Below, one piece after another: positions 16,187 through 19,122 of a stretch of 19,122 nt of DNA. Source of the DNA: Asticcacaulis sp. Lineage in GTDB: Bacteria; Pseudomonadota; Alphaproteobacteria; Caulobacterales; Caulobacteraceae. The stretch lies in assembly GCF_020217185.1 (NCBI RefSeq), contig NZ_JAIWNX010000267.1, positions 1-19,122 on the forward strand, read 5' to 3'. The number at the start of each line of letters is the position of its first letter. The first letter of the stretch is position 1. The notes below the pieces were generated by a model. That model worked only from the letters and a program-made list of their open reading frames with translations. It did no database searches and was not told the origin of the DNA. The position numbers were made by a program, and so were the translations under genes.

Positions 16187-17860
16187 ATGACCCCTGCACC
16201 CCATGCCGAGCTATTGTCCGAAGTGATCGACCTGATCTTCCCGGACGCCCTGCCGACCCCGGCCGAGCTGGAAGCCCGTTACCCCCCGCGCGACCTGCCG
16301 CAAGGGGCCATGGTCACCCGCGCCGGCCCCAGCCCGACGGGCATGATGCACATTGGCACCCTCTATGTCGGCCTGCTGTCCGAACGTTTCGCGCAGCAAA
16401 GCGGCGGCGTCTTCTTCCTGCGCATCGAAGACACCGACAAGAAGCGTGAGGTCGAAGGCGCCACGGACTTTATCTCCAGCGCCTTTGAGCACTTCGGCGT
16501 CGTCGTAAACGAAGGCCGCGACGTTCAGGGCGTCGAGCACGGTGCCTATGGCCCCTATACCCAAAGCGCCCGCATGAGCCTCTATCAGGCCTATGTCCGC
16601 CACCTGATGCAGGAGGGCAAGGCCTATCCCTGCTTCTGCTCGCCCGAAGAACTGGACGAACTGCGCACGCGCCAGCAACTGCGCAGCGTCGCCCCCGGCT
16701 ATTACGGCGACTGGGCCATCTGGCGTCACAAGCCGCTGGAAGAGGCGCTTGAGGCCCTCAAGGCTGGCAAGCCCTATGTGATCCGCTTCCGCTCGCCCGG
16801 CAATCCGGCCGAAAAGGTCGCCGTCACCGATCTGATCTTCGGTGAGCGCACCTTCCCGGAAAGCGATCAGGACATCGTCATCATGAAGTCCGACCGCCTG
16901 CCGACCTATCACCTCGCCCACGCCGTCGATGACCACCTGATGCGCACCACCCACGTCATCCGCGGCGATGAGTGGCTGGCCTCGCTGCCGACGCACCTGC
17001 AACTGTTCCAGTCGCTGGGCTGGACGCCGCCGACCTATGCGCATATCGCGCCGATCAACAAGCTGGACGGGTCGTCCAAGCGCAAGCTGAGCAAGCGCAA
17101 GGACCCGGAAGCCAGCGTCATCTACTTCATGGATCACGGCTATCCGCCCGCCGCCCTGATCGAATACCTGCTCAACCTGGCCAACTCCAATTTCGAAGAC
17201 TGGCGCAAGGAAAACCCCACCGCCGATTACCGCAGCTTCCCGCTGTCGTTCGAGCGTCTGGCCAAGAGCAACGGACCGCTGTTCGACTTCACCAAGCTCG
17301 ATAACATCAGCCGCGACATCGTGGCCCGCCTGAGCGCCGAAGAAGTCTATGCGCAGATCGTCGAATGGGCCAAACAGCATGACGCCCCCTTTGCGGCGGT
17401 GCTGGAGGCCGAAAAGGCCTACGCCACCGCCATCCTGTCGATCGAGCGCGGCGGCCCGAACGCGCGCAAGGACATCGCCAAATGGCAGGACGCCAGGGCC
17501 CTGATGGCGCCCTTCTTCGACTCCGAATTTACCTCCACGGCCGAAGACGCGCTGAGCGTTCTGGGCAATCGCACGGCCGAAGAGGTGCGTGAGATCGTGA
17601 GCGACTTCATGGGCGTCTATGATGAGGCCGACAGCAAGGAAGCGTGGTTCGATAAGGTCAAGACCATTGCCCGCGAGCGCGGCTTTGCCGAAAAGGCCGG
17701 CGATTACAAGCGCAACCCCGAACTCTACAAAGGCACGGTCGCCGACGTGGCCAAGATCTTCCGCGTCCTGCTTCTGGGCCAGCCGCAAACGCCCGACCTG
17801 CATGAGGTCATGGCCGCGATGGGACGCGACCGCGTGATCAAACGCCTGACGCGCGTGTAG
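16187..17860 (+). CDS. gltX: Glutamate--tRNA ligase (long, clostridial-like class)
   Basis: GluRS attaches glutamate to tRNA-Glu (and in many alphaproteobacteria to tRNA-Gln) in the cytoplasm. The 557-residue class I synthetase has the HIGH region RAGPSPTGMMHIGT (45-58), LRIEDTDKKREVEG (78-91), a CFCSPEELDEL segment (149-159), HLAHAVDDHLMRTTHVIRGD (242-261) and the KMSKS motif as KLSKR in SKRKLSKRKDPEAS (297-310). A C-terminal anticodon-binding part of about 230 residues ends MAAMGRDRVIKRL. Ordinary alphaproteobacterial GluRS is about 470 residues and lacks the N-terminal 40 residues; this form resembles the long class I know from Clostridia. An in-frame TAG six bases upstream fixes the ATG, though the ribosome site is weak. 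A strong terminator follows. Confidence 0.92.
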   Translation: MTPAPHAELLSEVIDLIFPDALPTPAELEARYPPRDLPQGAMVTRAGPSPTGMMHIGTLYVGLLSERFAQQSGGVFFLRIEDTDKKREVEGATDFISSAFEHFGVVVNEGRDVQGVEHGAYGPYTQSARMSLYQAYVRHLMQEGKAYPCFCSPEELDELRTRQQLRSVAPGYYGDWAIWRHKPLEEALEALKAGKPYVIRFRSPGNPAEKVAVTDLIFGERTFPESDQDIVIMKSDRLPTYHLAHAVDDHLMRTTHVIRGDEWLASLPTHLQLFQSLGWTPPTYAHIAPINKLDGSSKRKLSKRKDPEASVIYFMDHGYPPAALIEYLLNLANSNFEDWRKENPTADYRSFPLSFERLAKSNGPLFDFTKLDNISRDIVARLSAEEVYAQIVEWAKQHDAPFAAVLEAEKAYATAILSIERGGPNARKDIAKWQDARALMAPFFDSEFTSTAEDALSVLGNRTAEEVREIVSDFMGVYDEADSKEAWFDKVKTIARERGFAEKAGDYKRNPELYKGTVADVAKIFRVLLLGQPQTPDLHEVMAAMGRDRVIKRLTRV

Positions 17861-17886: not shown

Positions 17887-17915
17887 AAGGCCCACCCGCG
17901 AAGGTGGGCCTTTTT
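17887..17915 (+). terminator. Strong intrinsic terminator of gltX
   Basis: AAGGCCCACC and GGTGGGCCTT form a perfect 10-bp GC-rich stem around a CGCGAA loop, with a T-run of five immediately after the stem core. It starts 27 bases past the gltX stop. It is the clearest intrinsic terminator in the window. Confidence 0.92.
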
Positions 17916-17956
17916 GGTGAGTCCCCCTGTTTGGAGCGATGTACGGAACCACCCTG

Positions 17957-17980
17957 CCTTATACCTCCCGGCTTGTTGGG
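17957..17980 (+). repeat. Truncated head of the 100-base repeat
   Basis: CCTTATACCTCCCGGCTTGT followed by TGGG resembles the first stem-loop of the repeat at 18328-18428 (CTTATACCTCCCCAACTTGT), then stops. It appears to be a broken or partial copy just before copy A. The 24 bases between it and copy A show nothing recognisable. Confidence 0.5.
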
Positions 17981-18003
17981 TTATAGCGCCCGCGGTCAGA
18001 TCT

Positions 18004-18103
18004 CCCTCCCTTACACCTCCCTGCACTTCAGTGCGGGGAGCCGGGCGGCCGGTGCCGGGGACCGCACAACTGAGCGCAGCGAAGGCGATGCGGGGGTGGG
18101 GTG
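18004..18103 (+). repeat. Diverged copy A of the structured 100-base repeat
   Basis: It follows the same order as copies B and C: CTTACACCTCCC, a hairpin (CTCCCTGCAC / GTGCGGGGAG, loop TTCA, 18017-18040), GGGGACCGCAC, a spacer GAGCGCAGCGAAGG, then GATGCGGGGGTGGGG. The first stem is conserved in form though its sequence differs; the second inner stem seen in B and C is lost. The outer CCGCA/TGCGG pairing remains. Confidence 0.6.
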
Positions 18104-18139
18104 ATGCGAACCCGCCGCCCACGCCGGTGTTGAAACTCA

Positions 18140-18236
18140 GAAAGCCCCCACCACCACATCTCACCTGTCTTCGCTTAGGCTCAGACAGGCTCGTGCGGTC
18201 CCCCTCCCCAGTAACCTGGGGAGGTATAAGGAAGGG
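18140..18236 (-). repeat. Copy B of the structured 100-base repeat (inverted)
   Basis: Read on the minus strand it runs TTATACCTCCCC...GGGGAGGGGGACCGCACGAG...GGTGAGATG-GGTGGTGGGGG-CTTTCT, nearly the same as copy C. Its hairpins are CCTCCCCAG / CTGGGGAGG (18203-18224) and CCTGTCT / AGACAGG (18164-18189), with an outer ACCGCA/TGTGGT pairing. The variable stem bases differ from copy C but still pair. It lies in opposite orientation to copies A and C. Confidence 0.85.
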
Positions 18237-18327
18237 CGATCCCCCAAGGTTGGCAGGCGGGTGTCCGGGTGGCGCGGGACGGTGGCTTTTCTTGCCCTCG
18301 GTCCCTGCGTTGCGGGGAAGGTTCACA

Positions 18328-18428
18328 CCTCCCTTATACCTCCCCAACTTGTTGGGGAGGGGGACCGCACGAGCCTGATGCGCGTAGCGACATCAGGTGA
18401 GATGCGGTGGTGGGGGGTCTTTCTTTCC
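18328..18428 (+). repeat. Copy C of the structured 100-base repeat
   Basis: The first stem-loop is CCTCCCCAA / TTGGGGAGG with a CTTG loop (18339-18360). The second is CCTGATG / CATCAGG with a ten-base loop (18374-18397), enclosed by an outer ACCGCA / TGCGGT stem. Copies B and C share long identical stretches outside the variable stem positions. The 91 bases between copies B and C look unique, with no recognisable gene. I recall similar CCTCCCC...GGGGAGG palindromes scattered in Caulobacterales genomes, but no mobile-element gene is present here. Confidence 0.85.
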
Positions 18429-18474
18429 CAAAACCCACCCGCTGACATTTGCAAAACCCCGCGTCAGGCCCCAC

Positions 18475-19110
18475 TCACGGTGGGGCGGTTGGGGGCTGTG
18501 TCTGCGTCCCTTGCCGACGCAATTGCGACACCAGTTGCGCCGCTTTCGACGGCTGCGGCGTCAGACCGGGCAGGGCCGCCGGAGCGAGGGGCGCTTTCGG
18601 ACGAAACCCAGCCCCCGCAGCCCTCACCGGCGCCTGAGCCCCCGCCATCGGCGTCACCCCCGGCACAGGCAGGGGACGATCAACCACCTTGGCCGCCTCA
18701 GGCTTAACCCCTTTTGGCGCAGGCGCTGGCACTGCGTCGGCTTGAGGGCGGGGCGAGGTGGCTTCGCGTTTCGCCGCCTCCCACCACGGCCCCAGCTCGG
18801 TGCGCCGCGCCTGCGCCCACTTCAGCGTTCCGGCCAATGAGACGCGCGCCTTGAGCGCTTCGTTGTAGTGCTGCGCCCGCTCGGCCTCCAGCTTGCGCGG
18901 ATCAGGGGCCTGGGTTTCGGCGCGGTCGCAGCGGCTATAGATGCGCTCAATGACCGCCGCCACGCGCACCGCGCGCTCAACGCCTTGCATGTCTTCGGGA
19001 TCGTCCAGAGCCTCAGCGCGCAGCAGCATCCGGTCGGCAAAGGCGCGCAAACGGCGGCGCCGAACCTCCGGGCTTAGTCTCTCCTCTGTGCTGTGCGTGT
19101 CCAAAGCCAT
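18475..19110 (-). CDS. Ala/Pro-rich protein of unknown function
   Basis: I do not recognise this family. The product (about 211 residues from the ATG at 19110) has an N-terminal helical, charged half: EERLSPEVRRRRLRAFADRM, then LDDPEDMQGVERAVRVAAVI and ERIYSRCDRAETQ. A region of arginines, lysines and tryptophans follows (LKWAQARRTELGPWWEAAKR), and the last 80 residues are a low-complexity Ala/Pro tail. There is no signal peptide or membrane segment. The frame remains open to the right edge with a GTG at 19116, and no ribosome site is visible at 19110, so the true start may lie outside the window. A 7-bp hairpin (18468-18486) overlaps the stop. The coding frame has GC-rich third positions like its neighbours, supporting a real gene. 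Confidence 0.65.
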   Translation of the reverse strand: MALDTHSTEERLSPEVRRRRLRAFADRMLLRAEALDDPEDMQGVERAVRVAAVIERIYSRCDRAETQAPDPRKLEAERAQHYNEALKARVSLAGTLKWAQARRTELGPWWEAAKREATSPRPQADAVPAPAPKGVKPEAAKVVDRPLPVPGVTPMAGAQAPVRAAGAGFRPKAPLAPAALPGLTPQPSKAAQLVSQLRRQGTQTQPPTAPP

Positions 19111-19122
19111 GCCCACAGGATG

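Follow-up and report, generated by a model that had tools for sequence, protein, structure and literature searches.

A probable REP/BIME-like family of two-hairpin intergenic repeats at gene 3′ ends in Asticcacaulis

Repeat copies in a convergent intergenic region

The window, that is, the whole 19,122-nucleotide stretch of Asticcacaulis sp. DNA analyzed here, includes a gene of the glutamyl-tRNA synthetase type on the forward strand and an open frame on the reverse strand (18475-19116), and the repeats thus sit in a convergent intergenic region (Table 1). There are two full copies in opposite orientation (B and C), a degenerate copy (A), and a head fragment. The stem strings that the original prediction had given for B and C, as well as an outer ACCGCA stem paired with TGTGGT in B and with TGCGGT in C, are all present in the window sequence where they had been placed.

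As RNA, copy C is predicted to fold at −52.1 kcal/mol and copy B at −50.6 kcal/mol, and in each case 0 of 200 shuffles did as well. For copy A the z-score is −0.14 and 84 of 200 shuffles did equally well; A therefore does not count as well folded. It had been described as keeping stem 1 and losing stem 2. Stem 1 is indeed kept, but the loss is not a simple one: a 16-nt insert lies between the stems (18041-18056), and most of the outer stem is retained. The insert, which reads CCGGGCGGCCGGTGCC or close to it, is shared with L025 and, in nearly the same form, with L212; it is possibly a third module. The head fragment is present as predicted, but as a weak match.

Between the upstream gene and the repeats there is a terminator-like hairpin, which should be taken as a lead only, given that one was found against a mean of 1.1 in shuffles. 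An Rfam scan of the window at the gathering score returned tRNA only, with nothing over the repeats.

Table 1. Features of the repeat-bearing region, in window coordinates
Feature	Position	Strand	Basis or remark
Upstream gene, glutamyl-tRNA synthetase type	16187..17860	+	tRNA-synt_1c and Anticodon_2 domains
Terminator-like hairpin, T-rich tail after, between upstream gene and repeats	17895..17908	+	Terminator scan
Head fragment TTATACCTCCC..., without second hairpin	17953..17980	+	BLAST E 0.097
Copy A, degenerate	18012..18108	+	Covariance model 27.6 bits, E 0.0045; fold z −0.14
Copy A: stem 1 (long apex, TGCACTTCAGTGC); outer stem almost intact; inner hairpin poorly formed	18012..18108	+	
Copy B, full type 1 element	18139..18228	-	Covariance model 85.3 bits, E 5.8e-17; fold z −5.05
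Copy B outer stem, ACCGCA / TGTGGT, one G-U	18153..18199	-	Sequence and fold
Copy B inner hairpin, CCTGTCT / AGACAGG	18164-18189	-	Within outer stem; sequence and fold
Copy B stem-loop 1, CCTCCCCAG / CTGGGGAGG	18203..18224	-	Sequence and fold
Copy C, full type 1 element	18335..18422	+	Covariance model 90.4 bits, E 3.4e-18; fold z −4.92
Copy C stem-loop 1, CCTCCCCAA / TTGGGGAGG	18339..18360	+	Sequence and fold
Copy C outer stem, ACCGCA / TGCGGT, and internal loop, CGA / GAGA	18364..18408	+	Fold
Copy C inner hairpin, CCTGATG / CATCAGG	18374-18397	+	Module differing in the near relative G042
Downstream open frame, convergent; 3′ end faces copy C	18475..19116	-	No Pfam match

Two side observations concern the same region in the near relative G042. 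The repeat cluster and at least part of the downstream frame (window 18000-19116) have a paralogous copy in G042 (C1, near 1.320 Mb), and in the window's genome L009 seems to be a portion of that same paralogue. In addition, the G042 orthologue of copy B (L185) contains an unrelated insert of ~126 nt, with its target at about window position 18160-18163. Its ends (ATACCAA / TTGGTAT) and internal hairpins are like those of a small MITE.

A two-hairpin unit and its range

The window's genome is represented by 3.44 Mb in 320 contigs and is 95.8% complete. BLAST of copy C against it gave 56 pieces at E ≤ 10, 25 of them with E below 1e-7. The covariance-model search that had been suggested as a check on genome-wide copy number also found many copies, with 61 matches at E ≤ 0.01 when 150 of 1513 first-look candidates were scored (the 22 own copies from which the model was built match by construction). 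Aligned, these 22 copies show two hairpins carried by one scaffold; units of the family measure some 65-90 nt. In type 1 units, the scaffold reads CCTCCCC, apex 1, GGGGAGGGGGACCGCACGA, apex 2, and AGATGYGGTGGTGGGG, the apices being two variable hairpin modules.

The prediction of a dispersed, structured repeat is borne out by paired cells in excess of shuffles, both on an alignment that was not fitted to any model and on one that was. In the unfitted alignment of the 22 own copies (A1), 92.1% of the cells of the named structure are paired, compared with 85.5% after shuffling, and there is more covariation (0.200 vs. 0.114) and a larger number of double-change cells (36 vs. 15.8). Among 149 distinct rows fitted to the model, paired cells reach 96.7%, compared with 83.3% when shuffled. 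Run de novo on A1, RNAalifold recovered stem 1 and chose another register for the rest, so the named second stem is unsupported by that tool. Letter-shuffling of the second apex weakened the fold in 114 of 116 distinct modules. The internal loop of type 1 units is conserved, with CGA opposite GAGA, and the base after CACGA is coupled to the base before AGATG (G-G 83, A-G 40, C-T 24, and others 8, in 155 units picked with fixed CACGA and AGATG).

G-U pairs outnumber A-C oppositions by 198 to 6 and 43 to 6 in model-fitted alignments but by only 21 to 9 in the unfitted A1. By position, the counts are 93 to 0 at the outer pair (157 units), 17 to 1 in apex 1 (modules from a first, uncorrected parse), and, in apex 2, 42 to 8 with the closing pair and 2 to 4 without it. 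The interior pairs of apex 2 comprise 276 Watson-Crick, 2 G-U, and 4 A-C in the 116 distinct modules, closing pair excluded. At some pairs the excess weakly hints that the strand on which CCTCCCC comes first is under selection. Strand asymmetry was rejected as proof of RNA, being weak on the unfitted alignment and absent deep in apex 2.

Model matches at E ≤ 0.001 occur in 117 of 149 Caulobacteraceae genomes, including 23 of 23 from Asticcacaulis. The exact type 1 core, by comparison, is present in all 23 Asticcacaulis genomes and in 0 of the 126 others of the family. Across named genomes the exact type 1 pattern was found in at least 116 stretches, and the matches listed are all from Asticcacaulis (80 of 80). 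One of the other 36 loci (L121) has this pattern on a contig labeled as a Bradyrhizobium MAG, which could be a case of misbinning. In the five genomes outside the genus that we looked at, the matches are of reduced length and have one hairpin that immediately follows GGACC. Within the class, a pattern accepting both unit types matched 6 of 289 genomes, three of these from other families, and the short type 2 form ranges wider than type 1. A genome of the same class and another family (G162) carries 48 exact matches to GGGGAGGGGGACC-hairpin-GGTGGNGGGG (23 forward and 25 reverse); the short form is thus not limited to Caulobacteraceae. In the open-licence literature that we searched, we found no paper on Asticcacaulis that deals with REP or intergenic palindromic repeats.

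Inverted pairs and placement at gene ends

The association of units with one another was surveyed for 197 model hits, of which 150 (of 166) came from 80 named loci and 47 from 0.8 Mb of G042. They form 135 clusters: 60 double, one triple, and 74 single, the last being an upper bound because the model favors type 1. All 60 two-member clusters are inverted. Tail-to-tail doubles number 36, with gaps of 30-35 nt in 25 of them, and head-to-head doubles 24, with gaps of 6-24 nt in 19. Tail-to-tail spacers often share TCTT(G/A)CTT at one end, and at several A. aquaticus and YBE204 loci they share a longer stretch. Fully typed doubles consist of a type 1 and a type 2 unit in 42 of 52 cases by a first typing rule, which misread at least two units (L110:3886 and L071:4158), and in 41 of 51 by a second rule, which left 20 of the 197 hits untyped; the ten remaining doubles are then 1-1. 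Selection of the named loci by the type 1 pattern favors one type 1 member. The G042 stretch was not so selected, and there all eight typed doubles are mixed (8/8; in total 10 doubles, 24 singles, and the triple). L203 and L212 have inverted pairs of yet another, third type that looks related (GGGGAGGTGG-hairpin-GACGG(T/A)GGGG).

Placement was judged against genes called by a codon-usage gene caller trained on G042. The units are almost never intragenic (1 of 129 in the named loci and 0 of 43 in G042, with 21 and 4 edge cases, respectively, excluded), and they avoid divergent regions, where 3 of 128 and 4 of 43 units lie, compared with a divergent share of 101 of 439 among G042 intergenic regions of at least 60 nt. 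In tandem regions their orientation is nearly even (44 sense to 35 antisense units for the named loci and 12 to 11 for G042). Location relative to gene 3′ ends had been singled out for checking in the original prediction, and there is an excess just after stop codons when clusters are sense-first: 24 of 44 start within 10 nt of the stop codon where 10.6 are expected, compared with 9 of 27 antisense-first clusters where 6.1 are expected (P 0.07). The expectation is random placement in the same gap, conditional on the gap left by the cluster, and the sample is 116 of the 135 clusters, 19 having been left out for want of a flanking gene or because such a gene extended past the end of the locus. 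Among convergent clusters, for which there is no null, 28 of 40 come to within 10 nt of a gene end at one edge.

We think it likely that the window copies belong to a genus-wide, REP/BIME-like family that is intergenic at gene 3′ ends, is built of modular hairpins, and would have a folded role at those ends. REP/BIMEs of Escherichia coli and other gammaproteobacteria are likewise high-copy extragenic palindromes in inverted units, with unit types reported to be combined in alternating orientation (PMC2817692). The REP palindrome, as described in PMC3733652, is 20-40 bp, unlike the longer, two-hairpin unit of Asticcacaulis. We file the repeat as a variant of the REP/BIME kind, and not as a REPIN, a tagged REP, or a CIR. 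It may once have been mobile, or may still be, and it would act, if at all, as a folded 3′-end structure. New copies would arrive by insertion, through a mobilizing activity encoded elsewhere that is, as far as found, not a Y1/RAYT gene of the window's genome. Modules would then spread between copies by recombination or template switching via the invariant scaffold, and selection would retain units at gene ends and remove others. A transcribed unit would fold as a 3′-end structure, which could act as a brake on 3′ exonucleases or have an effect on termination or on the release of ribosomes. Position and predicted fold suggest such an RNA-level function. A role of this sort would be analogous to what PMC12306157 reports for E. 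coli, where some REPs lie close behind stop codons and those within 15 nt lower translation. Counted against this reading are the nearly even orientation of units in tandem regions and the position of the window repeats beyond the terminator-like hairpin of the upstream gene.

The same placement would be expected if the units were bidirectional terminators or mRNA 3′-end stabilizers fixed by selection, with mobility only as history. The excess after stop codons when the head faces the gene, the convergent clusters at gene ends (no null), and a T-rich stretch after GGTGGTGGGG in many units all suit such a role. However, no canonical terminator was detected at the copies by the scan, and 8 of the 21 units that could be placed in G042 lack a full counterpart there, so few units can be essential. 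We therefore regard fixed terminators or stabilizers as possible but doubtful.

Module replacement, mobility, and relation to known repeats

Pattern searching of the window's genome gave 34 distinct units, and the 21 placed in the 1.6 Mb of G042 fetched have flanks of 88-99% identity, mostly 94-98%. In ten of them the modules are conserved, with changes at no more than a few bases (L005, L012, two in L015, two in L022, L030, two in L172, and window B, interrupted by its insert). In three (window C, L026, and L169), a module has been replaced in place. The eight without a full counterpart are two in L007 (at that place G042 carries a short type-2-like unit) and L008, L023, L014, L018, L027, and L167. 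Window C has the same stem 1 in G042 and a different but equally paired stem 2. At L018 and L172, compared with another relative (a MAG), the second hairpins differ at the same site and are still paired. The stem 2 that G042 has at window C recurs identically elsewhere in G042, including at the paralogous locus. The G042 paralogue carries the same C modules and the window genome's paralogue, L009, carries others, which fits conversion between paralogues.

Compensatory change between B and C had been taken to argue that structure is selected. The stems are paired, as claimed, but the argument is weakened. The B/C difference would more simply be that of two different modules on one scaffold. It fits whole-module replacement better than stepwise compensation, and covariation among repeat copies is thus, by itself, no proof of selection or of a selected RNA. 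In all, the 155 units represent 149 combinations drawn from 78 first and 116 second modules. Within species, 24 pairs share an apex 2 of at least 10 nt and three of these also share apex 1, compared with a permutation mean of 1.17 pairs sharing both (P 0.108). In AC460, three copies whose first apices all differ have one and the same 28-nt module. A shared apex 2 that is simple could reflect convergence rather than exchange.

One tentative reading of this pattern is that the scaffold is the recognized part, whether as RNA or as single-stranded DNA, and that the pairing apices are shuffled until their combinations are almost random, something other than a RAYT driving the spread. If true, this would be a repeat family with its own mobilizing and homogenizing machinery, and its covariation would be a record of recombination rather than of stepwise compensation. 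Both questions, that of REP-like spread without a RAYT and that of selection vs. recombination behind palindrome covariation, are directly testable here because close relatives show filled, empty, and module-swapped versions of one site.

Mutation alone might also produce paired modules, in that template switching at quasi-palindromes can match both arms in one event, without selection for structure. The almost perfect pairing of apex 2, with its few intermediates, and the difference of whole hairpins at once at orthologous sites are as this process would leave them. We consider this reading unlikely: the modules identical to the G042 stem 2 of window C fit a copy from another unit, and the G-U excess at the outer pair and in apex 1 counts against it because symmetric mutation predicts no such excess.

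Returning to the REP/BIME-like reading, its insertion step finds a possible example at L014. The unit there fills a site between two convergent genes, and the orthologous site in G042 is empty, with the stop codons nearly touching. The flank matched 25 genomes, and of the 24 loci kept and read, only that of the window's genome has the type 1 unit, which is in none of the other 23. Several of these are empty, some have a different neighbor gene, and others (in G099, G104, G068, G060, and G075) have other, related-looking repeats. TTA flanks the insert on both sides and, in this one case, is possibly a target duplication. L014 is the only clean filled/empty site, L008 and L023 not being clean. 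It is filled by a single unit, although the 60 inverted doublets have preferred spacing and partly shared spacers. At L167, a relative seems to retain a remnant, that is, to show loss. As a side observation, the third type mentioned above is also found at the L014 site (L301, L303, L314, L315, and L322), and one and the same gene junction holds different repeats in different species.

The mover suggested by the original prediction, a RAYT (Y1) transposase, could not be linked to the repeat. The Y1 domain (PF01797) is absent from the window's genome by a search that was positive in 5 of 14 control genomes. It is present in three and absent from 20 of the 23 Asticcacaulis genomes, all of which carry the repeats, and no mobilizing enzyme was found. 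This separates most of the hosts from those of REPs, which usually come with a Y1 gene. Nor was there a model match (E ≤ 1) within 1.5 kb, or to the contig end, at the 10 of the family's 43 Y1 places that were checked; one of these is in Asticcacaulis, and beside the nine others the type 1 model could miss short relatives. The GTAG or CGTC tag found at the foot of REP stems was seen in a single one of 155 type 1 units (within 8 nt on the 5′ side of stem 1), and its complement in five (on the 3′ side of the tail).

These results make it quite improbable that the elements are classical REPINs, i.e., REP doublets in inverted orientation that a RAYT (a Y1, HUH enzyme) of the same genome mobilizes as single-stranded DNA. 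There are likenesses: PMC3116915 describes the REPINs of Bertels and Rainey as extragenic, high-copy inverted doublets that favor certain spacings and can fold into a single hairpin, and strand-biased G-U pairs would also suit single-stranded DNA. Apart from the missing Y1 gene and tag, and the partial test near Y1 places, the Asticcacaulis repeat differs from REPINs in that singles are common (74 of 135 clusters, an upper bound) and in that its hairpin modules differ as wholes. CGTC-tagged palindromes, which PMC3733652 describes as mostly alphaproteobacterial, with 8-9 bp stems, a CGTC tag, and a CCA tail, form both head-to-head and tail-to-tail dimers, mainly head-to-head, whereas the Asticcacaulis pairs are mostly tail-to-tail (36 to 24) and the tag was not found.

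The CIR repeats of Chen and Shapiro (CcrM-associated intergenic repeats of Caulobacter) are similar in order of size, also have two arms and a linker, and are intergenic in alphaproteobacteria, but PMC2229807 describes them as having GANTC at the terminal loop, which is not conserved here (it occurs in 3 of 155 type 1 units, in 1 of 155 within an apex module, and in 9 of 197 model hits), so that we rejected this identity as very improbable.

A second dispersed repeat, about 90-146 nt long (TTTTGTTTTGTCGCGATGTTTTT...CACTTTTCCGCACATCGCT), lies near elements in L003, L007, L008, L022, and L023, and it is also present at several places in G042.
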